The notes under the pieces were generated by a model. The model ran no database searches and was not told where the DNA came from. It saw only the letters and a program-made list of their open reading frames with translations. A stretch of DNA of 64,000 bases from Pyrobaculum islandicum DSM 4184 (GTDB taxonomy: Archaea; Thermoproteota; Thermoprotei; Thermoproteales; Thermoproteaceae), in NCBI RefSeq assembly GCF_000015205.1, contig NC_008701.1, positions 62,001-126,000 of the forward strand. The letters are read 5' to 3'. Shown one piece after another: positions 32,853 through 44,704 of this stretch. The number at the start of each line of letters is the position of its first letter. Position 1 is the first letter of the stretch. Position numbers and translations under genes: made by a program.

Positions 32853-34934
32853 ATGGGTTTAACACAACGCGAGCTTGAGATAATACGTGAGAGACTGGGG
32901 AGAGAGCCCACAGCCGCCGAGTTGGCCTTTTTCACGTCACATTGGTCTGAGCACTGCTCCTACAAATCCACTAAGATGTGGCTCAGAGAGCTCCCCGGCT
33001 CTGCGCCGTGGGTTGTTAGAGGAAGGGGCACAGACGCCCCGCTTGTAGAGGTGGCGCACGGTCTCTACGTCAGCTTTAAGATAGAATCACATAACCACCC
33101 TAGCGCCGTCGACCCCTACAACGGGGCAGCTACCGGCGTCGGTGGGATAATACGAGATATCCTAACCGTTGGAGCGACACCGATAGCTCTTCTCGTTAAT
33201 CTACACTTCGGCCCTCCCGAGGACCCCCACGCCAAGTGGATATTTTCTAACGTGATTAAGGGTATCTCTGACTATGGCAACCGAGTCGGGGTCCCCGTGG
33301 TGGGCGGCGAGACGTGGTTTGACGAAGATTTTACATACACTCCCATAGTCCTCGCCACTTGCGTCGGGGTGGTTGAGGCAGAGGCTGTGCCGAAGGGTTA
33401 CGTAGAGCCTGGGGATTACATCGTGGTGGCGGGCCTTGGGGCAGACAGAAGCGGGCTAGGCGGCTCGGCCTTCGCCAGCAAGACCTTGGAGGGGGGCGAG
33501 GACCTCGGCGCAATACAAGTGGCAGACCCCCTAATGGGAAAAAAGCTAATCGACGTAGTGAAAGAAGTTAGTAGATGTGTAAAGTTCATAAAAGACCTGG
33601 GAGGCGGGGGCTTGGCCACAGCTCTCGCCGAGCTTTCCCACTGGTTTTCCCTAGGGGTGGAGTTCCACTTAGACAAGCTACATGTACGAGATGCATCGGC
33701 CTTGCCCGAGGAGTTGCTCATAAGCGAGACACAAGAACGTCTGATTTTCGTCATTTCTCCACGAGATTTGCCATGTCTAGAGGAGGCGCTGAGAAAATAC
33801 GAGGTTCCATACTCTATCCCAGGGCGTTTTGTAAAAAGCGATAGAGTATTGGTAATGTGGAAGGGCGTTAAGATAGTCGACATACCTATTTCTCTAGCAG
33901 ATGGAGCGCCGGAAATCCTCTGGCCTCAAGAGCCTTACCAACCATCCGATATTCCCGAAATCCCCGAGCCGCCTATAGACAAAGCGATAGATATTGTCTT
34001 GTCCTCCCCCAATGTAGCTAAGAAAGAGTCTATATACATGCGCTTTGATTTCGATGTAGGAGTTAGGACGGCAGTAAAGCCGGGGGAGGGAGACGCCGCA
34101 GTGTTAAAACTCTATCAACGTGGGCAACTGGGCCTTGTAGTAAAGGGAGACGCCAATCCGAGGTACACCTTCTTAGATCCGAGACTGGGGGCCGCCAACG
34201 CCTTTGTAAAAGCCTATAGAAACGTCGCCGTTGTGGGCGGAGTTCCCCTCGCCGCCGTAGACTCTATAAACGTGGGGAGTCCCGAGAGGCCGCAAGTCTA
34301 CTGGCGGTTTGTACAAGCTGTACAAGGCCTAAAGGAAGCCGCAACTGAACTTGAGGTGCCTATTGTAGGGGGTAAAGTCAGCCTATACAACGAATACATG
34401 GGCCGTCCCATAAAGCCGACAGTTGCCGTGGTCGTGCTTGGCAAAATCGACGACGTGTCTAAGGCAAATAGAGCGCTTTGGCACGACGGCGACAAAATAT
34501 ACATCTGGGGCGTTACAAAAGGTGAAGTAGGGGGGAGCGAGTATTTAAAAAGAGTACATGGGATACTTGCTGGGAGGCCTCCTAGTATAGATTATGCGGC
34601 TGAAAAAGAAATTGTAGCGGTTATACAGAGCTGGCTTGGGAAAATAAGTGGCGCTACTGACGTAGGACTCGGCGGGTTAATTACGGCGTTGGCAAAAATG
34701 GCTATAAACAGCGGCATAGGCGGCGAAATAGATGTATGTAAAGCCCCGGCAGAGACTACAAGACTAGACTATCTATTATTTAGCGAGTCGAATGGCCGTT
34801 TTATAGCAACGGGAGCAGAGGGGCCTGGCGTTGCAATTGGCGAGGCATATGGCGAAGAGTTTGTGGTTAAATGTGGCGGGACGTTGATATATAAGCGGGG
34901 GGTGGAAGAGCTTAAACGTCTAATGTCTCTTTGA
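32853..34934 (+). CDS. purL: FGAM synthetase, small PurL subunit
   Basis: 693 residues, the length of the small PurL that works with separate PurS and PurQ. Motifs: [15 protein letters not shown] (about 27-41), [17 protein letters not shown] with catalytic His, GGIIRDILT, then [13 protein letters not shown]. It converts FGAR to FGAM with ATP and ammonia delivered by PurQ. PurS and PurQ are encoded 5.3 kb downstream (40277-41165). purF starts one base after its stop, so the pair is an operon. GC is slightly lower than in surrounding genes, as in the rest of the purine cluster. Confidence 0.95.
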
Positions 34935-34935
34935 T

Positions 34936-36204
34936 ATGTGTGGCATAGGCGCAGCGTGGGGTAAAGGGGCGGGGGCCGCGGTGGTAAAAATAGGCCTTTG
35001 GCTATCACATAGAGGACACGAGGGCGTTGGATATGCATATTTAGAGAACGGCGCGGTGAAATTGGGGAAACCCCCAGAGGATACGCAAGCCGCGTTAGTA
35101 CACGTTAGATACTCCACCTCGGGGCCCTACGGTGTGTCTTTACAGCCGGTGTATGTAAAATACCGAGATCTAGAAATTGCAGTTGCTTTCAACGGCACAA
35201 TTGTGAATTTTAGACAGCTGGATAACACGGCGTCGTTTGACGGCGAGGCTTTAGCAAAAAGTTTGGCAAGAGAGATGTGGGAGAGGGGGGTTGTAGAAGG
35301 CGTACAAGAGGTGTATAAAAGGATAGTGGGAGCGGCGTCACTTGTGGCGCTTACTCCATGGGGTATACTTGCAGTGAGAGATCCGCATGGGATAAGGCCG
35401 TTGGCCCTAAGCCACGATATAGATGGCGTAAAAATCGCGTCGGAGACTGTAGCGCTTGAAAACGGCATAGAGTTGGCGCCTGGCATCGCTATAATGTATG
35501 GCGATAGAATATCTACTTGGAAGATAGACCCAAAGCCGATGCGACTATGCGCATTAGAATATGTATATTTTGCCCACCCTGCGTCAAAACTTGGGGGGAG
35601 ACTTGTGGCAGACGTTAGAAAAGCCCTAGGCCGCGCCCTGGCGGAAGATGAGACAGAAGAAGGCGATGTAGTTACCTACGTGCCTGAAACCGCACGGCAC
35701 GCTGCGTTAGGTTTTGCCAAGAGGTTAGGCCTAGAGGTTGTAGACGCCGTGGTGAAAAATAGATTTTCTGGCAGATTATTCATAAGGCCTCCGAGCGAGA
35801 GAAAACCAGAAGAGGCTTTTTATGTAGTGAGAGATTTTATAGAAAAGAAAAGAGTATTTCTCATCGACGACTCGCTCATAAGAGGTACAAATATAAAGGC
35901 CATTATATGGATGTTGAAAAAAGCCGGCGCGACTAAAGTACATGTGAGAATAGCGTCTCCGCCAATTAGATGGCCTTGTTTCTATGGAATGGATTTTCAA
36001 AAAAGAACAGAGCTTGTAGCATGGGGAAGAGATGTGGAAGAGGTGAGAGAGATAATAGGCGCGGATACCCTTCGTTATATCTCCATGGAGAAGTTTAGAG
36101 CTATCCTCGGCGATGTCGTATGCTACAGCTGTTTCACCGGCGTATATCCCCATGGAATAGATATAGATTGGGCTGAGAGAGAGCTTTCTAGGAATTTTAA
36201 ATGA
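34936..36204 (+). CDS. purF: Amidophosphoribosyltransferase PurF
   Basis: 422 residues. Cys2 after the start Met is the N-terminal nucleophile of the glutaminase domain (MCGIGAAWG), and HRGHEGVGYAY holds the second glutaminase motif. The phosphoribosyltransferase half has VFLIDDSLIRGTN (about 306-318), the PRPP loop. VVCYSCFTG near the end has the cysteine pair used for an iron-sulfur cluster in many PurF proteins. It makes phosphoribosylamine from PRPP and glutamine. No propeptide precedes Cys2, so only Met removal is required. Cotranscribed with purL. A second, Cys-less PurF-like gene lies at 41167-42285. Confidence 0.93.
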   Translation: MCGIGAAWGKGAGAAVVKIGLWLSHRGHEGVGYAYLENGAVKLGKPPEDTQAALVHVRYSTSGPYGVSLQPVYVKYRDLEIAVAFNGTIVNFRQLDNTASFDGEALAKSLAREMWERGVVEGVQEVYKRIVGAASLVALTPWGILAVRDPHGIRPLALSHDIDGVKIASETVALENGIELAPGIAIMYGDRISTWKIDPKPMRLCALEYVYFAHPASKLGGRLVADVRKALGRALAEDETEEGDVVTYVPETARHAALGFAKRLGLEVVDAVVKNRFSGRLFIRPPSERKPEEAFYVVRDFIEKKRVFLIDDSLIRGTNIKAIIWMLKKAGATKVHVRIASPPIRWPCFYGMDFQKRTELVAWGRDVEEVREIIGADTLRYISMEKFRAILGDVVCYSCFTGVYPHGIDIDWAERELSRNFK

Positions 36205-36271: not shown

Positions 36272-37111
36272 GTGATTGTGAAAATAGGAATTCTGGCGTC
36301 TTGGAGGGGTACAAATGCAAAAGCTATATTTGACCATGTAAAACTAGGCGTCTTAAGAGGGGTAGAGCCTGTGTTGTTGATATATACAGACGAAAATGCG
36401 CCAGTGAGAAAGATAGCGGAGGCCTACGGCGTAGAGGCTGTGTATATACAACACAGGGGGGTCGCCAGGGCGAGGAGAGAACAAGAACTAGCAGACCTTT
36501 TGAGACAATATGGCGTAGACTTAGTAATACTGGCTGGCTACGACTACATATTGGGGTCTTCCTTTATTGAACAATTTAGGTGGAGGATATTAAACATCCA
36601 CCCCTCTCTTCTGCCATTTGCCGGAGGTAAGGGGATGTATGGTTTGAGAGTCCATATGGAAGTGTACAGGGCTGGCGTAAAAATCTCCGGCCCCACTGTA
36701 CATCTAGTAGATGAGTCTGTAGATGGAGGCCCCATTCTAGATCAATGGCCTGTATACATAGGGGATATATACGGGCTTGACCTCCCATATGAAGAAAAAC
36801 TAGCTATACTAGCCGATAGAGTTTTGATATATGAACATAGGCTCTACTCAAGAGTAATACAGGCTGTGGCAGACGGCTTGCTGGAGGTAATTAGCGAACG
36901 TGTAAAATATCCCAAGGTGATAGAGGAGGGGGGCAGGATTAAGTATGAAGAAGAGGAAGTTGAGGTGGCTAGAGCTGTGTTAAAAACTGGCGAAGGCTGG
37001 CTTAGAGAGTGGCGTGAGAGACAAAGAGTCTATGTAGAGCATCAGCTTAGAGAGTGGCGTGAGTCTGGAAAGCCCATGCATTTGATATGTCCCCATGGTT
37101 GTTTGGATTAA
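36272..37111 (+). CDS. purN: Phosphoribosylglycinamide formyltransferase PurN with C-terminal extension
   Basis: 279 residues from GTG 36272 (a GTG two codons later is equally possible). ILASWRGTNAKAIFD binds the ribotide; NIHPSLLPFAGG holds the catalytic Asn and His; VDGGPI the catalytic Asp. It formylates GAR with 10-formyl-tetrahydrofolate. PurN is usually about 200 residues; here ~70 extra follow, charged and helical, with LREWRE twice and a CPHGC near the end. The role of the tail is unknown. TATA-like GTTTATATATCTG (36248-36260). The end overlaps folD by 17 bases, which fits since FolD supplies the cofactor. Confidence 0.9.
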   Translation: MIVKIGILASWRGTNAKAIFDHVKLGVLRGVEPVLLIYTDENAPVRKIAEAYGVEAVYIQHRGVARARREQELADLLRQYGVDLVILAGYDYILGSSFIEQFRWRILNIHPSLLPFAGGKGMYGLRVHMEVYRAGVKISGPTVHLVDESVDGGPILDQWPVYIGDIYGLDLPYEEKLAILADRVLIYEHRLYSRVIQAVADGLLEVISERVKYPKVIEEGGRIKYEEEEVEVARAVLKTGEGWLREWRERQRVYVEHQLREWRESGKPMHLICPHGCLD

Positions 37112-38030
37112 AGGCGACAGACTACATACAGAAACTCTGGAGTGGGCTAGACGCCACGTGAAGGAGTTAGAGCGCTATGGAGTTACTCCAAAGCTAGCCG
37201 TACTCCTTCTAAACGACGACCCAATAGAGTTGGAGACGCAACATAAATACGTATCTCTAAAGGCAAGAGATATTAAGTCTATAGGAGGTGAGGTTGAGCT
37301 TTTCGAGCTATATAAAGAGCCGCCGGAGAAAAGAGAAGTCGCGGCGTTGAAATTAATAGAGAGGTTGAATAACGCAGATGATGTAACTGGCATATTAGTC
37401 CAAAAGCCTCTGCCGCCGTATGTAGACGAGACAAAGATTTTTGAGAGACTCTCCCCTCTAAAAGACGTAGATGGCCTTACCCCCGAAAATAAAAAACGGC
37501 TAGTGACAGGCTTCGACTTAGATAGAGATATCTTGCCTTGTACACCCGCCGGTATACTGGAGTTATTTAGACAATATAAAATCGACGTCAGAGGCAAGGA
37601 TGTCGTTGTAGTTGGCAAGGGGACTTTGGTGGGGTTTCCACTCTCTATAATGTTAATGCAACTAGATGCAACAGTCACAGTTCTCCACGCCCTGAGTAAA
37701 GACAGAAAATATTACGTAAGAAACGCAGATATTATAATTTCCGCAGTGGGGAGGCCGCCGGAGCTATACAGCGACAACCCCTGGAAGCTCACTGGAGATT
37801 TTATAAAAGAGGGCGCCGTAGTAGTCGGCGTAGGCGGCAAGGTTGACCCAGTTACAAAAAAGTGGTATTTCGACGTTGATGAAAAAAGCGTAGCTGAGAA
37901 AGCGTCTTATCTAACGCCAAATATCGGCGGCGTGGGACTTGCCACTAGAGCCCGCCTTGTGAAAAACCTCATAATTACGAGTTATATGGTTGCAACACGC
38001 GTCGCCTCGCCTAGACTTCTCGCTCTTTAA
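37095..38030 (+). CDS. folD: Methylene-THF dehydrogenase / methenyl-THF cyclohydrolase FolD
   Basis: 311 residues. HKYVSLKARDI has the catalytic Tyr-x3-Lys; GILVQKPLP and DVDGLTPEN the folate site; GKGTLVGFPLSIML the NADP loop with the first glycine motif altered from G-R-S to G-K-G; PNIGGVGLATRA near the end. It makes 10-formyl-THF for PurN. Its start lies inside the end of purN, so expression is coupled. The last 20 bases overlap the convergent purC gene. It supports real tetrahydrofolate use rather than methanopterin in this organism. Confidence 0.92.
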   Translation: MVVWIKGDRLHTETLEWARRHVKELERYGVTPKLAVLLLNDDPIELETQHKYVSLKARDIKSIGGEVELFELYKEPPEKREVAALKLIERLNNADDVTGILVQKPLPPYVDETKIFERLSPLKDVDGLTPENKKRLVTGFDLDRDILPCTPAGILELFRQYKIDVRGKDVVVVGKGTLVGFPLSIMLMQLDATVTVLHALSKDRKYYVRNADIIISAVGRPPELYSDNPWKLTGDFIKEGAVVVGVGGKVDPVTKKWYFDVDEKSVAEKASYLTPNIGGVGLATRARLVKNLIITSYMVATRVASPRLLAL

Positions 38031-38730
38031 TGCCTAGGAGCTCTCTAGTGAGTATAAGTAGTTGTTCGTACCTCTGTAAAAGCCCTTTTACATCGCCTGT
38101 CTTCCTATAGTACTCTTTGTCTAGGTGTTCGCCATTACACAAAAGTCTAAAGGTGTCGCCGCTTATCTCATCAATAAGTAAAAACTTTCCACTACGTCTA
38201 CCAAATTCAAACTTTATATCTATAAAATCGCAATTAGCTTTACTATAAAGCTTTCTTAACGTCTCTGCCGCTTTTGTTGCAATTTCGGCGATTTCATAGA
38301 TTTCGCTTTCTTTTAATATGCCGGCTTCTACAGCGTCTTGAGGCAATATGAGAGGGTCGTGGAGTCTGTCGTCCTTTAGGTGGAGTTCTACAAGCGGTTT
38401 TCTAAACTCTTGCAGGGGGGCTACAAGCGGCATTCTCCTCAAGTAGCTACCATATGCCTTAAATCTAACAATAACCTCCAGTGGTATTACATCTGTCTTA
38501 TAGACTTCTAACGCATTTAAATCCACCATTTGTATGAAATGATTTTCCACGCCTTCTCTACTTAGGTATTTAAATAAGATGGCGGAGAGAGCTGCAGAAA
38601 GCGCGCCTTTGTTAGGCGCTGTGTCTCTCCTAGCTCCATCAAAAGCCGTAACTTCGTCTTTAAATACCAACACCAACGTGTCTCCCCTAGAGTAAACTCT
38701 CTTGGCTTTCCCCTCATAGACCAACTCCAT
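38011..38730 (-). CDS. purC: SAICAR synthetase PurC
   Basis: 239 residues. YEGKAKRVY at the N-terminus binds ATP; RFKAYGSYLRR, CDFIDIKFEFG and LLIDEISGDTFRL (about 180-192) are the family's substrate and metal sites. It joins CAIR and aspartate. Length is normal. TATA-like GAATATTTAAAA on the minus strand (about 38751-38762) precedes the ATG at 38730. Its stop overlaps folD on the other strand by 20 bases. Confidence 0.95.
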   Translation of the reverse strand: MELVYEGKAKRVYSRGDTLVLVFKDEVTAFDGARRDTAPNKGALSAALSAILFKYLSREGVENHFIQMVDLNALEVYKTDVIPLEVIVRFKAYGSYLRRMPLVAPLQEFRKPLVELHLKDDRLHDPLILPQDAVEAGILKESEIYEIAEIATKAAETLRKLYSKANCDFIDIKFEFGRRSGKFLLIDEISGDTFRLLCNGEHLDKEYYRKTGDVKGLLQRYEQLLILTRELLGIKEREV

Positions 38731-38843: not shown

Positions 38844-40280
38844 ATGGACAAAGTGTTAGTCGTAGGCGACGGCGCGCGAGAACACGCCATTGCCTGGTCA
38901 TTAGAAAAGTCGGGGGTTGCCGTTGGCGCCGTGATTTCACATCTAAACCCCGGGCTTGTAGACATTATAAAACGTACCGGGGGGAGGGTCTTCTTAGGAA
39001 GCCCCGTGGACCCCCATTTTGTGGTTAAGGCCGCTGAGGAGTTCTCTCCTGACTTAGTTATCATAGGCCCAGAAGAGCCGCTTTTTGCAGGGGTGTCTGA
39101 TGCCCTACGTGAAAAAGGGTTTAGAACTTTAGGCGCCTCTAAGAGACTTGCGATTATTGAAATGCGGAAAGACGTCGCCAGAGCTCTACAGTGGAAGTAT
39201 GGAATACCCGGGAGGTTGATATACGGCGTATTTAAAAACATAGAGGAGGCGTATAGCTTTAGTAAAGCTCTTGGCGCTGTGGCGATAAAGCCCATTAGAC
39301 AAGCCGGTGGCAAGGGGGTGAGAGTGATCTATGGAGATGCCAAATATCTGGAATTTGACGAAGCGTATAGAAAAAGCGCTGAAGACATAATGAAACAACT
39401 TTCTAATTTTAGGGATGTTGACGCCGCAGTGCTTGTAGAAGAGGCTGTATGGGGTATCGAGTTTACAATACAAGCGTTAACAGACGGCGAGACGCTATTC
39501 TTCTTCCCGCCTGTACAAGACAATCCACATGCATATGAATATGGCGTAGGGCCTGAATGCGGCGGCATGGGGACAATCTCGCCATTGCCATTCTTGGAGG
39601 AGGGAGAGGTAGAAGAAGCTAAGAAGGCTGTAGAGTTCACTGTAAAAGCCTTGCGTGAGGAATTCGGCGAGAGATATGTGGGCGTAATCAGTGGACAAAT
39701 GATGTTGACAACGCGCGGCCCCGTCATAATTGAGTACTACAGCAGGCTGGGAGACCCAGAGGCACTTAACGCCCTCTATCTCTACGAGGGAGACGCCTAC
39801 TCTCTGTTTAGTCTTGCCGCCGATGGTAAACTTCACAAAGCGGAGAGGAGGTTTAAGGAGGAATACACAGTGGTTAAAGCTCTTGCCCCCCTGGGCTATC
39901 CGCATAAAAGAGATATAGCCAAGGGGAGGAGGGTATATATCGATTGGGACGTGATCAAGAGAGAGGGGTGTCTCGTCTTCTTCTCGTCCGTTGAAGAGAG
40001 AGACGGCGCCTATGTCACACTTGGCTCTAGGGCACTTGAAATCCTCGCCCCGGGGAAGACGGCAGAAGAGGCTTATCTTAAGTCGGAGAGGTGTATGTCT
40101 GCGGTGAGGGGAGACGGCGTCTACTACCGCCGCGACATTGGCTCGCCTGAGTATATGTCCTACATGGCAACTAAGGCGGGCAAAGTAAGAGCTGTCTACA
40201 AGTGGAGAAGAGAGAGAGGCTTAGACGGCAAAATTGCGATATGGGAGCCGGGGGTGGGGCTGAGAGAGTATAAGCTATGA
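38844..40280 (+). CDS. purD: Phosphoribosylamine-glycine ligase PurD
   Basis: 478 residues, about 50 longer than most PurD proteins. VLVVGDGAREHAIAW (4-18); IIGPEEPLFAGVSDALRE; KPIRQAGGKGVRVI is the ATP-grasp loop; FTIQALTDGE and GTISPLPF complete the site. It ligates glycine to phosphoribosylamine. The extra length is a C-terminal tail with KWRRERGLDGKIAIWEPG and a lengthened central domain. TATA-like ACTTTTAAATAG (38816-38827). Its stop overlaps the purS start by four bases, so purD-purS-purQ-purF2-purM form one operon. Confidence 0.93.
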   Translation: MDKVLVVGDGAREHAIAWSLEKSGVAVGAVISHLNPGLVDIIKRTGGRVFLGSPVDPHFVVKAAEEFSPDLVIIGPEEPLFAGVSDALREKGFRTLGASKRLAIIEMRKDVARALQWKYGIPGRLIYGVFKNIEEAYSFSKALGAVAIKPIRQAGGKGVRVIYGDAKYLEFDEAYRKSAEDIMKQLSNFRDVDAAVLVEEAVWGIEFTIQALTDGETLFFFPPVQDNPHAYEYGVGPECGGMGTISPLPFLEEGEVEEAKKAVEFTVKALREEFGERYVGVISGQMMLTTRGPVIIEYYSRLGDPEALNALYLYEGDAYSLFSLAADGKLHKAERRFKEEYTVVKALAPLGYPHKRDIAKGRRVYIDWDVIKREGCLVFFSSVEERDGAYVTLGSRALEILAPGKTAEEAYLKSERCMSAVRGDGVYYRRDIGSPEYMSYMATKAGKVRAVYKWRRERGLDGKIAIWEPGVGLREYKL

Positions 40281-40531
40281 GGTACCTCGTTTACTTAAAC
40301 ATAGCCTACAAGCGGGGGATTAGGGATCCCGAAGGCGAGACTATCCAGAGGGAGATCTTCGAACGCCGTGGCGTTAGTATAGAGGTGAGGGCGGGGAAGT
40401 GTCTAGTATTAACTATCGAGGCCTCAAGCCCGGAGGAGGCCAGAGAGAAGGCGTTGAAGCTGGCGTGGGATATGCGCCTGGGCAATCCAAACGTCCACAT
40501 GGTAGAGGTGGTGAGAGTGGAATATGTATAG
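40277..40531 (+). CDS. purS: FGAM synthetase subunit PurS
   Basis: 84 residues. NIAYKRGIRDPEGETI and FERRGVSIEVRAGKCLVLTI fit the short beta-alpha-beta-beta-alpha-beta PurS fold, and the C-terminus LGNPNVHMVEVVRVEYV is typical. PurS is a structural subunit that bridges PurL and PurQ. The gene overlaps purD by four and purQ by eight bases. Confidence 0.92.
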   Translation: MRYLVYLNIAYKRGIRDPEGETIQREIFERRGVSIEVRAGKCLVLTIEASSPEEAREKALKLAWDMRLGNPNVHMVEVVRVEYV

Positions 40532-41165
40532 AGTGGCTGTTTTAAAATTTCCCGGTACCAACGGCGACTATGATGTGTTGAGGGCGCTGAATTTAGTAGG
40601 TCTCCAGGGGGAGATTGTGTGGTATAGAGACTACGCCGCGGGGAAATATGACGCGGTTGTGTTAGCCGGCGGCTTCAGCTACGGAGATCGCCTCAGGGCT
40701 GGGGCAATAGCGGCACAGACAGAGGCCATAGAACAGCTAAGGAGAGACGTAGAGAGAGAGATCCCCGTGTTGGGCATATGCAACGGGTTCCAGATACTAG
40801 TCGAGGCAGGCTTCCTCCCAGGTGCGCTGGCCCCCAACGAGCCCCCCGGCTTTATATCGAAGTGGATTCAGGTGGCCGTAGTAGATGTGAAAACTCCCTT
40901 CACCCATCTATACGAGCCGGGAGAGGTGGTGTATATGCCTATTGCCCACGGCGAAGGTAGGTACATACCGTCGGGGCCCTATACCCAAGCCTTTAGATAT
41001 GTGGAAAACCCTAACGGGTCTCACAACGCCACCGCTGGGGTGAGTAACGGAAACGTCCTCGGCCTCATGCCTCATCCAGAGAGGGCAGTGGATAGAGATA
41101 TCTCCAGAGGCGGCGTCGGCGGCTTAAAGCTGTGGCTAAGCCTAAAGAGCTGGCTCAAGGGGTGA
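40524..41165 (+). CDS. purQ: FGAM synthetase glutaminase subunit PurQ
   Basis: 213 residues, class I glutaminase. LKFPGTNGDYD near the N-terminus, LAGGFSYGDRLRAGAIA, nucleophile Cys86 in GICNGFQIL, and MPHPERAVD with the triad His and Glu. It supplies ammonia to PurL. The start lies inside purS. The next gene, a PurF paralogue, starts after one base. Confidence 0.95.
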   Translation: MYRVAVLKFPGTNGDYDVLRALNLVGLQGEIVWYRDYAAGKYDAVVLAGGFSYGDRLRAGAIAAQTEAIEQLRRDVEREIPVLGICNGFQILVEAGFLPGALAPNEPPGFISKWIQVAVVDVKTPFTHLYEPGEVVYMPIAHGEGRYIPSGPYTQAFRYVENPNGSHNATAGVSNGNVLGLMPHPERAVDRDISRGGVGGLKLWLSLKSWLKG

Positions 41166-41166
41166 C

Positions 41167-42285
41167 ATGTCGGTGGGTCTCTTCGCGATATATAGCTTCG
41201 GGGGCCCCGTAGAGCTTTGGTCTATGGTATACTACGGCCTTAAGGCTTTGACAAACCGCGGCGACTTCGCCGAGGCGTATGTATACAACGGCGGGGTGGA
41301 GAGGGTCGAAGTGGACCTCTCTAGAGAGGTGGAAAGATCTCTCCGCGGCTCGGCGGCGGTCGGTTGCGTCTCGCCTAACGGCGGCTGTTGTAGAGAGGTA
41401 GAGGGCGGCGTGAGGTGTTCAACCAACGACGGGGGGACATACGTCGAGTTGCGGAGAGACGGGGTTGTGGCAGCTAGACGTGGCGAGTCTCTATGGCATC
41501 TAACCCTCGGCGCACATGGGTTTGACTACGCCATAATCTCCACAGAGAGCGCGGCAATTGAGATCCTAGGCGGTGAGATCAGAAGGTCGCTACGGCCGGG
41601 GGAAATCATAGAGGTCAGCGAGTTGTATCTAAGGTCAAGAGGCGGCGGAGCCAGCGGCCCGCTCTGCGCCCTTGAGTTTATATATATGGCAAGACCCGAC
41701 AGCAGAATAGACGGCGTTGAGGTGGCTTCTGTCAGAGAGAAAATTGCTAAGAAGCTTGTAGAGAAGATAAGCTACACACCAGACGTAGTTGTGGGCATCC
41801 CAGAGACGGGTTCATATTACGCCGCCCATATAGCTGCTGCCCTTGGGAGGCCCTATCTGCCTGCCTTTGTCGCAACGGCGAGGGGGAGAAGCGCCTTGTT
41901 AGACGAAGTGAGAGATAGGATGGCCGTCATACAGCTGAAGGCTAACGTCATAGAGTCAGCAGTGAGGGGGAAGAGGGTGCTCCTAGTAGACGACAGTATG
42001 ATAAGTGGCATCACCATAAGGCTTGTGGCGCAGATGCTACGTCAGAAAGCCGGCGCCCTTGAGATATATGTGGCGGTAGTGGCGCCTCCGCTGAGGAGAA
42101 CGTGTCCCCACGGCGTGAAAATGCCGCCGGAGAGCCACATGATCTATAACGCCGTGCCGCCTGACGAAGTTAAATACGCCTTGGAGGTAGACGGCATATT
42201 CTACCTATCAGCCGACGAGCTAGAAGAGACCTTGAAAGAGGCCGGGGTCTCGGTCTGCACCCTCTGTATGAGGCCGAGACGATGA
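41167..42285 (+). CDS. PurF-like protein lacking the glutaminase nucleophile
   Basis: 372 residues. It starts MSVGLFAIYSFGG where PurF has MCGI..., so Ser2 replaces the catalytic Cys and the glutaminase domain is short and divergent, with a Cys-rich insert (GCVSPNGGCC). The phosphoribosyltransferase half is kept: ALEFIYMARPDSRIDG, VVVGIPETG, and the PRPP loop VLLVDDSMISGIT (about 271-283, where PurF has R-G-T-T). The usual flexible-loop motif G-R-T-F-I is replaced by GRSALL. CPHG and VCTLCM near the end could bind an iron-sulfur cluster. It may be an ammonia-dependent enzyme, a partner of PurF, or a regulator. Its position between purQ and purM (four-base overlap) ties it to purine synthesis. 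Confidence 0.8.
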   Translation: MSVGLFAIYSFGGPVELWSMVYYGLKALTNRGDFAEAYVYNGGVERVEVDLSREVERSLRGSAAVGCVSPNGGCCREVEGGVRCSTNDGGTYVELRRDGVVAARRGESLWHLTLGAHGFDYAIISTESAAIEILGGEIRRSLRPGEIIEVSELYLRSRGGGASGPLCALEFIYMARPDSRIDGVEVASVREKIAKKLVEKISYTPDVVVGIPETGSYYAAHIAAALGRPYLPAFVATARGRSALLDEVRDRMAVIQLKANVIESAVRGKRVLLVDDSMISGITIRLVAQMLRQKAGALEIYVAVVAPPLRRTCPHGVKMPPESHMIYNAVPPDEVKYALEVDGIFYLSADELEETLKEAGVSVCTLCMRPRR

Positions 42286-43205
42286 GGTATAGAGACGCCG
42301 GCGTAGACCTAGACAAACACTGGGCGGTACACAAAGCGGTGTCTCAATACCTCGGAGGCGCCAGGGGGATTTACACAAGCTCTCTAGAGGTAGGCGGCGC
42401 CAGACTTACGCTCCATGTAGACGGCGTGGGAACAAAGGCAGTGTTGGCGCTAGAGTTAGACAGACTTGAGGTAGCTGGGAGAGACTGCGTCACAGTAAAT
42501 GTAAATGATATAGTCTGCGACGGCTTTAAGCCGCTGGCCGTTGTGGACTATGTAGCTGTAGAGCCCCAACACCTAGACAAGGTGCCCAGGGTCGTAGCCG
42601 GCGTTGCTTCCAAAGCTGGCGAAGTCGGCGCTCAGCTCTTGGGCGGCGAAACGGCAGTTCTGCCGGGAGTGATCTACGGCATAGACGTAGTCTGCACAGT
42701 CCTTGGGATAAAAGCCGCGTACACAAGGCCGCCGGCCCCAGGCGACGTCTTGATAGGTCTCCCATCCACAGGTCCCCACGCCAATGGCTACAGCCTACTA
42801 CGCCGACTGTTTAAGCCAGAGGAGGAAGTCTGCGGCAGGCCAGCGGCAGAGCTGCTGCTGGCAGAAGTCGCCGACTATAGCCCCGTGTTGAAGGCCATGG
42901 AGGAGGACACAGTCGCCGGAGCGGTTCATATCACGGGGGGTGGGTATAGGAAGTTGAAAAAGGCGCTCGGCGGCCTGGGGGCAGAGGTGGCCTTCGACGT
43001 TCCATGTCTCTTCAGAGAGATCGTCAAGAGGGGGGTTGAGCCACACGAGGCTTACCAAGTCTTTAACATGGGCATAGGCATGGTTGTCTACACGACTAAA
43101 GACCGGCTTGGAGAGGCGCTGAGAGCTCTAGAGCCCCTAAACCCGAGACCCATCGGCGAGGTTAAACAAGGCGGTGGCCTATTGGTAAATTCCATAATAA
43201 TATAG
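42282..43205 (+). CDS. purM: AIR synthetase PurM
   Basis: 307 residues. MRYRDAGVDLDK start, HVDGVGTKAVLA (ATP/substrate), NVNDIVCDGFKPL, GGETAVLPG, STGPHANGYSL and HITGGGYRKL are the AIRS family blocks. It closes the imidazole ring of FGAM to give AIR. Start overlaps the upstream PurF-like gene. Slightly short of bacterial PurM (about 345). Last gene of the purD operon. Confidence 0.94.
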   Translation: MRYRDAGVDLDKHWAVHKAVSQYLGGARGIYTSSLEVGGARLTLHVDGVGTKAVLALELDRLEVAGRDCVTVNVNDIVCDGFKPLAVVDYVAVEPQHLDKVPRVVAGVASKAGEVGAQLLGGETAVLPGVIYGIDVVCTVLGIKAAYTRPPAPGDVLIGLPSTGPHANGYSLLRRLFKPEEEVCGRPAAELLLAEVADYSPVLKAMEEDTVAGAVHITGGGYRKLKKALGGLGAEVAFDVPCLFREIVKRGVEPHEAYQVFNMGIGMVVYTTKDRLGEALRALEPLNPRPIGEVKQGGGLLVNSIII

Positions 43206-44261: not shown

Positions 44262-44704
44262 CGTCTTCGTCGACTTAAAGAAGGGCGTAGTCTAATCCGA
44301 GACATCGTGGTAGACGCAACGCGCGAGATCATAAAGTTGGCCGGAGAGCACCAAGCCGCCATAGTCGTCGATACGATGGAAGACGAGAGTTACCGGGAGC
44401 CGAAGGAGGGGGACAGTAGTGGAGTGAAGAAACACTTTCTAGACGGGTTGGGCCAGCTGAGGAGGCGCCTACAACACTTGGCGCAGTGGTATGGACTGCC
44501 GTATCTAGAGGAGCGGCTGTACTCAACTGTATGCCCCGCTGTGGCGCGAAGATGAAAGAGCTGAATAACAGGCGGATGCGTTGTCCTTCTTGCGGCTTCA
44601 ACGACAACCGAGACAACGTGCCACTGCTCTGGGCCAAAAAGAGGTACTTAGAGCTCCTCCAGAAACAATCCGTTTTTTCGCCCATCACACTTTTAAGTTC
44701 GTAA
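44262..44704 (+). pseudogene. tnpB: Decayed TnpB fragment (C-terminal part with zinc ribbon)
   Basis: Reads RLRRLKEGRSLIRDIVVDA, then REIIKLAGEHQAAIVVDTM (RuvC-II region, where E-D-L is normal and D-T-M is found here), then QLRRRLQHLAQWYGLPYLEE and, after a one-base frameshift near 44530, CPRCGAK ... RMRCPSCGF, the CxxC-CxxC zinc ribbon. RuvC-III is not complete: DNRDNVPLLWAKK stands where D-x-N-A-A is expected. No N-terminal half is attached. TnpB is the RNA-guided nuclease of IS605-type elements; this copy is dead. Confidence 0.75.
44305..44365 (+). repeat. Inverted repeat arm 2 (TnpB segment)
   Basis: Plus-strand partner of 43924-43984; one mismatch in 61 bases. The arms enclose about 320 bases that hold the opposed TnpB fragment. 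Confidence 0.85.

Follow-up and report, generated by a model that had tools for sequence, protein, structure and literature searches.

PurF′, a PurF paralogue without a glutaminase site in the purine operon of Pyrobaculum islandicum, is a candidate partner of a tailed PurD

A 64,000-nucleotide stretch of the genome of Pyrobaculum islandicum DSM 4184 (contig NC_008701.1, positions 62,001 to 126,000; hereafter the window, to whose coordinates all positions refer) encodes, in addition to a canonical PurF, a PurF paralogue in the purD operon, in which the glutaminase residues are gone and the type I phosphoribosyltransferase (PRTase) site is intact. As judged from sequence, this protein, PurF′, appears to be tied to PurD, a link that is new with this analysis. 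We put at slightly under one in two (about 0.48) the probability that PurF′ serves as a partner subunit dedicated to the first two steps of purine synthesis, where it would couple the formation of phosphoribosylamine (PRA) to PurD. The reading draws on the loss of the glutaminase, the retained PRPP residues and Fe–S ligands, the selection acting on the gene, its occurrence, within the order, in purine prototrophs only, and its co-inheritance with a PurD bearing a C-terminal tail.

Relation to earlier work

PurF′ itself is already published, probably with the window gene included. Brown, Hoopes, White and Sarisky (Brown et al. 2011, PMC3261824) gave this name to such proteins of Crenarchaeota and proposed, as a hypothesis only, an NH3-dependent aminotransferase; P. 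islandicum was covered, and its two purP genes, found here close together near the pur cluster at about 25.6–27.8 kb, were described. The family is the same in the part of that article available to us, namely a second PurF-like copy that lacks the N-terminal Cys, of which each crenarchaeon has one in addition to PurF, and which is clustered with purine genes, and the window protein likewise has no N-terminal Cys, is the second copy beside a Cys-bearing PurF, and lies near purF and other pur genes. That part of the article contains no function, no analysis of PRTase or Fe–S residues, no link to PurD and no shrunken four-Cys N-domain, and outside Crenarchaeota mentions only an unrelated recent duplicate in Methanocorpusculum. 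The view of the earlier note that no function had been described therefore holds for a tested function, as far as this source goes, but not for the protein and its NH3-dependent hypothesis. Our literature search found neither a follow-up on PurF′ nor a report of its wide spread, the residue-level contrast with PurF, the four-Cys variant, or the PurD tail and its co-inheritance.

The purF′ gene and its operon

The purF′ gene (41167–42285, + strand) starts with ATG and is an intact open reading frame of 372 residues that matches PurF profiles and lies, as first noticed from the letters alone, between purQ (40524–41165, +) and purM (42282–43205, +). It begins one base past the purQ stop at 41165 and shares its last 4 bases with purM, which starts at 42282. 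The operon purD–purS–purQ–purF′–purM, headed by purD (38844–40280, +; GAR synthetase, 478 residues) and purS (40277–40531, +; 4-base overlap with purD), is tightly packed throughout, with junctions that are 4 to 8 base overlaps or a 1-base gap. Divergent from purD is purC (38011–38730, − strand), which was named from sequence and served as a query when gene neighbourhoods were searched. The purF′ strand has a further purine operon, containing purL (32853–34934, +), canonical purF (34936–36204, +) directly downstream of it, purN (36272–37111, +; GAR formyltransferase), and folD; canonical purF is about 5 kb away from purF′. The product of canonical purF is the normal PurF that had been reported for the window, with Cys2, the GATase domains, all glutaminase and PRTase residues, and five cysteines that correspond to the nucleophile and four Fe–S ligands. 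A protein search of the genome (1,826,402 bp, one contig) found just these two PurF-like proteins. A miscalled purF′ start concealing a Cys was considered and rejected, with no in-frame Cys near the start and relatives beginning M-S-A-G-L.

Downstream of purM there are two pairs of inverted repeats (43924–43996/44293–44365, 73 nt, 95%; 43317–43387/44577–44647, 71 nt, 80%) and a fragment (44486–44704) with a weak, below-cut-off match to a TnpB/Cas12f-type zinc finger (PF07282); together they resemble what is left of an IS605/IS607-type element carrying an inverted duplication.

Loss of the glutaminase site

In profile searches, the window PurF′ matched TIGR01134 (2.1e-42, residues 91–368) and the PRTase domain PF00156 (1.8e-13), and no glutaminase model. 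Its TIGR01134 score of 146 bits is below the curated whole-protein cut-off of 350; this is a weak criterion by itself, because the canonical PurF of the window (280.8 bits) also falls short. Residues were compared in alignments with E. coli PurF and more than 100 archaeal PurF-like proteins. The pseudo-glutaminase (Ntn-like) part, about residues 1–160 (41167–41646), is shrunken, as had been noted; such shortening of the N-domain is found in the Thermoproteaceae PurF′. Although residue 2 is indeed Ser, it is Val3, not Ser2 as supposed earlier, that occupies the column of the catalytic Cys1 (Ala in congeners, MSAGL), and the glutamine-site residues Arg73, Tyr74, Asn101–Gly102, and Asp127 have no equivalents. 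Across 125 PurFs, Cys1, Arg73, Tyr74, Asn101, Gly102, and Asp127 are conserved, apart from a single undetermined letter at Cys1; the 120 PurF′ have for the most part lost them, most sharply Arg73 (125/125 against 0/120). At the level of the alignments, PurF′ is thus shown to be incapable of acting as a glutaminase. In Asgard-type loci labelled Jordarchaeia, Freyarchaeota, and Sigynarchaeota (L192, L193, L202, L203, L211, L214, and L222), PurF′ has Cys1 without Arg73/Tyr74, so that the most parsimonious order may be loss of the glutamine loop first and of the nucleophile later; these proteins are apparent intermediates in the loss of the glutaminase.

The shortened N-domain contains the motif C67-x6-C74-C75-x8-C84 (41365–41418). 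The cysteines of the "Cys-rich insert" of the earlier note are real, recurring as C-x(5,6)-C-C-x(7,8)-C in each of the 12 PurF′ compared from Thermoproteaceae and being absent from the PurFs of that family, but they lie in a replaced stretch and not in an insertion. Together with the four Fe–S ligands they are the sole cysteines of 10 of the 12, whose PurFs mostly have five. A second metal site or disulfides are possible roles for the motif.

Conserved PRPP and Fe–S positions

The PRTase site of PurF′ is well preserved. In the window protein, the PPi loop G210-I-P-E-T-G-S216 (41794–41814) places Thr214 at the Mg ligand position (E. coli Thr304, Cys1 numbering), the flexible-loop core R241...K258 (41887–41940) corresponds to E. 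coli Arg332 to Lys349, and the PRPP loop reads D275-D-S-M-I-S-G-I-T283 (41989–42015). Residues equivalent to all those checked for the Mg–PRPP site (Thr304, Asp366–Asp367–Ser368, Gly372, Arg332, and Lys349) are present, and the claim that the PRPP loop is kept is borne out by D275–D276–S277, G281, and T283, with Ser at the position of a PurF-specific Arg. Loss of PRPP-binding residues, which had been named as one of two observations that would count against the earlier reading, was looked for, and instead Pro302, Thr304, Arg332, Arg342 (Arg/Lys), Lys349, Asp366, Asp367, Ser368, Gly372, and Thr374 were found in 119–120 of the 120 PurF′ (Ser and Thr being scored alike at 374, where three PurF′ have Ser). 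Mutations equivalent to changes in the Asp-Asp-Ser triplet cripple the plant PurF (PMC7056826), so that the kept triplet argues for a PRPP/PRA site in use.

The C-terminal cysteines that had attracted attention are also real: Cys364-x-x-Cys367 (42256–42267), Cys167 (41665–41667), and Cys313 (42103–42105) align with B. subtilis Cys437/440, Cys236, and Cys382, respectively, the usual 4Fe–4S ligand positions of the B. subtilis-type PurF, and only one of the PurF′ aligned does not have all four. The same ligands are found in the canonical PurF of the window, and the Fe–S positions were dismissed as a special feature of PurF′. An AlphaFold2 monomer model of the window PurF′ (pLDDT, 91.7) has PurF structures as its best PDB matches, at a TM-score of about 0.80 over the whole of PurF. 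With the PurFs of E. coli (1ECC) and B. subtilis (1GPH/1AO0) it thus shares the fold, the Mg–PRPP site, and the 4Fe–4S ligands, whereas it differs from them in having no nucleophile or glutamine loop, in the shrunken N-domain of the Thermoproteaceae forms, and in an altered entry to the flexible loop, where A-T-A-R stands in place of the K-N-R-Y of PurF. The PurF′ family has a signature of its own, with Thr at 327 (108/120), usually Gly at 328, and Ala or Met at the position of Phe334. A decaying pseudogene is excluded by the conserved motifs and a dN/dS of 0.09–0.14.

Such a site would suit a free-standing, NH3-dependent PRA synthase (PRPP + NH3 → PRA + PPi), a second and glutamine-free entry to purines as in the hypothesis of Brown et al. 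All Mg–PRPP contact residues are kept, including the flexible-loop set Arg332/Arg342/Lys349, NH3 is still a substrate of E. coli PurF after replacement of Cys1 (cited in the part of PMC3261824 available to us), and the PRA-using purD lies in the same operon. We nevertheless regard this role as unlikely. Phe334, invariant in PurF, is never kept in PurF′ (Ala/Met in 116/120), and the segment beginning at Lys326 (K-N-R-Y) is gone; moreover, PurF′ occurs only alongside PurF in the order searched, and neither the matching tail on PurD nor the correspondence with PurD type would be explained by an enzyme that worked alone.

Distribution and phylogeny

PurF′ forms one clade (SH-aLRT, 100). In the order to which the window belongs, PurF and PurF′ are both present in 18 good genomes, both absent from 7, and never found one without the other; six of the 7 also have no full purD, and the seventh (G004) has a partial purD that lies at the end of a contig. 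This co-presence, the operon position, and the low dN/dS lend good support to the suggested role in purine synthesis, and the gene, far from being absent or broken in all relatives, is intact in the purine-prototrophic ones. A scan of named genomes with a single peptide pattern, of which the best 80 matches were kept, gave at least 80 loci, all PurF′ by profile and most with PurF directly upstream. They are distributed over Thermoproteales, Sulfolobales, Desulfurococcales, Bathyarchaeota, Brockarchaeota, Nezhaarchaeota, Methanomethylicota, some Nitrososphaeria, Asgard-type metagenome-assembled genomes (Jord-, Njord-, Sigyn-, Frey-, and Baldrarchaeota labels), Theionarchaea, and Methanofastidiosia, a spread that is a lower bound and in which labels of metagenome-assembled genomes may err. 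PurF without PurF′ is found in Nitrosopumilaceae and several other families (f11, f17, f22, f26, f27, f34, and f37). PurF′ is ancient.

We also considered PurF′ as the answer to the missing crenarchaeal IMP cyclohydrolase. PurO (PF07826) was found in none of 60 genomes, and the PurH domain (PF01808) in 7 of 26 PurF′-less and 0 of 34 PurF′-bearing genomes; the idea was rejected, as most PurF′-less genomes also have neither PurO nor PurH.

A same-class relative (G045, locus L129) has a PurF above the family cut-off and PurH in the same cluster, no PurF′, and versions of PurF and PurH that look unlike those of its relatives. The pur clusters of Euryarchaeota archaeon CPBay (L199) and Vulcanisaeta sp. 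JCM 14467 (L207) have the Sulfolobales gene order, and PurF, PurF′, and PurD of the former and PurD of the latter group with Sulfolobaceae; these clusters reflect either transfer of whole cassettes or mis-assembly or contamination.

Association with PurD

PurD is the operon neighbour of purF′ in the window, and its substrate PRA is the product of PurF. The usual order elsewhere is purF–purF′–purD, with PurF directly upstream in 88/122 and purD directly downstream in 90/122 loci (some genomes being counted twice); 52 of 71 PurF/PurF′ pairs lie within 60 bp, often as overlapping genes. Part of this order is ancestral, since purF adjoins purD also in genomes without PurF′. After a split of PurF and PurF′, the latter is with purD in four or five cases, namely Pyrobaculum/Thermoproteus, a group with divergent purF and purF′–purD, L132/L181/L197, and L213. 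In Vulcanisaeta/Caldivirga, PurF′ is beside PurF and purM and not purD, and in family f21 it stands alone, away from both purF and purD. In family f32 (G126 and G153; L102–L105, L265, and L279), PurF′ is unlinked to purF and purD and PurD has no tail, which makes this family a natural test case for the link between PurF′ and the tail.

Partial correlations of distance matrices over 56 genomes, which are descriptive as the pairs are not independent, gave PurF′ values of 0.54 with PurD, 0.40 with PurF, and about zero or negative with PurC, PurL, and PurQ; when Thermoproteales were left out the first two were 0.62 and 0.37, and PurD ranked first in 90% of random halves.

The PurDs of PurF′ carriers have an additional C-terminal part. 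Past the YRxDIG motif, 113 of 118 carrier PurDs have a tail of 39–63 residues against 6–25 residues in 44/44 non-carriers, E. coli included; the exceptions are family f32 and two carrier loci in which the tail is shortened (L160/L162). The tail has near-invariant Arg, Tyr, and Arg residues and a W-x-P motif, the latter in 111/112 tails and 0/45 non-carrier PurDs. In the window PurD it spans residues 435–478 (40146–40277), outside TIGR00877 and the matched stretches of solved PurDs, and is predicted to be ordered, as a 23-residue helix (435–457) and a β-hairpin (463–477) with W467-x-P469. This helix-hairpin tail distinguishes the carrier PurDs from canonical PurDs (1GSO, 2YRW) and from archaeal PurDs of PurF′-less genomes, and a crude length check found no similar carrier-specific tail on other pur proteins.

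In quick maximum-likelihood trees, carriers form one clade on the PurD tree (SH-aLRT, 100), indicating a single origin of the tail, with the non-carrier PurDs in distant lineages and one on a long branch (L268). On the PurF tree, the carrier state requires 8 changes, at least 5 of them forced by supported branches, and a single carrier clade is rejected (AU test, p=2.6e-5). On these trees, then, it is the subtype of PurD, and not the lineage of PurF, that is shown to go with the presence of PurF′. In 5/5 independent, well-supported contrasts, a change in PurF′ is accompanied by one in PurD type (p=0.0625, the minimum possible with 5); given the one tail origin, the association rests on few independent events.

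The closeness of purF and purF′ and the correlation of their products would also be expected if PurF′ were a regulatory pseudo-subunit, whose PRTase pocket would detect PRPP or purine nucleotides and which would adjust the activity of PurF. This seems improbable to us, since the equivalents of Lys326 and Arg328, which from work on B. subtilis we take to be nucleotide-site residues in bacterial PurF, are lost in PurF′, and both the covariation, which is strongest with PurD, and the pattern of inheritance point to PurD and away from PurF. A precedent exists in human NUDT5, which binds PPAT with AMP as a glue (PMC12853130, PMC13421311) and resembles such a regulator as a partner protein that changes the output of a PurF-family enzyme, although NUDT5 is an unrelated Nudix protein and PurF′ a PurF paralogue tied to PurD. 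It is very unlikely that the PurD link is a historical by-product of a purF–purF′–purD cassette moved whole, with the tail marking a PurD clade and PurF′ acting elsewhere in the pathway (in another phosphoribosyl transfer, for example, or as a PurQ/PurS/PurM scaffold): the single tail origin, the seemingly joint mobility of whole pur clusters (L199, L207), and the tail-less PurD of family f32 would fit, but the PurFs carried on these cassettes do not form a single clade, covariation with PurQ, PurL, and PurC is nil, and PurF′ remains beside purD in most rearrangements.

Proposed role of PurF′

The roles offered at the outset, an NH3-dependent synthase, a modulator of PurF, or a PRPP/nucleotide sensor, remain as the alternatives weighed above, yet none of them names PurD, the partner most indicated. 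As a partner subunit coupling PurF to PurD, PurF′ would join its paralogue PurF in an oligomer like that of PurF, and PurD would dock on PurF′ through its helix-hairpin tail. With no need of glutamine, PurF′ may hold PRPP or PRA in its kept site, so that PRA held or made beside PurD would be converted to GAR before it hydrolyses; PurF′ might either only hold and hand over PRA or also synthesize it from PRPP and free NH3. The half-life of PRA is about 5 s under physiological conditions (PMC6287904) and presumably much shorter at Pyrobaculum temperatures. Transfer between E. coli PurF and PurD has kinetic support, and no stable complex was found (reviewed in PMC10912719); coupling of the Aquifex enzymes was too weak, and a missing further component was suggested (cited in the available part of PMC3261824). 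We propose that in carriers PurF′ could be such a component.

In its more specific form, the proposal is that PurF′ and the W-x-P tail of PurD constitute a dedicated device for handing over PRA across TACK, Asgard-type, and some euryarchaeal lineages, with a former PurF as the docking and transfer subunit or as an NH3-dependent synthesis subunit; this we hold as a tentative reading, possible rather than probable. The co-occurrence of PurF′ with a tailed PurD is what a hand-over complex predicts. Against it stand the PurF′-less genomes that make purines, the tail-less PurD of f32, the short tails of L160/L162, the gene order of Vulcanisaeta/Caldivirga, and the single origin of the tail.

The route by which PRA, a compound that survives for seconds only, passes from PurF to PurD has been an open question for decades, and an ancient extra subunit inherited with a tailed PurD makes this transfer directly testable in archaea. 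The link between PurF′ and PurD would also account for the duplication that was noted in 2011 and had been hard to understand, and it corrects annotations in which purF′ genes may be called amidophosphoribosyltransferase.
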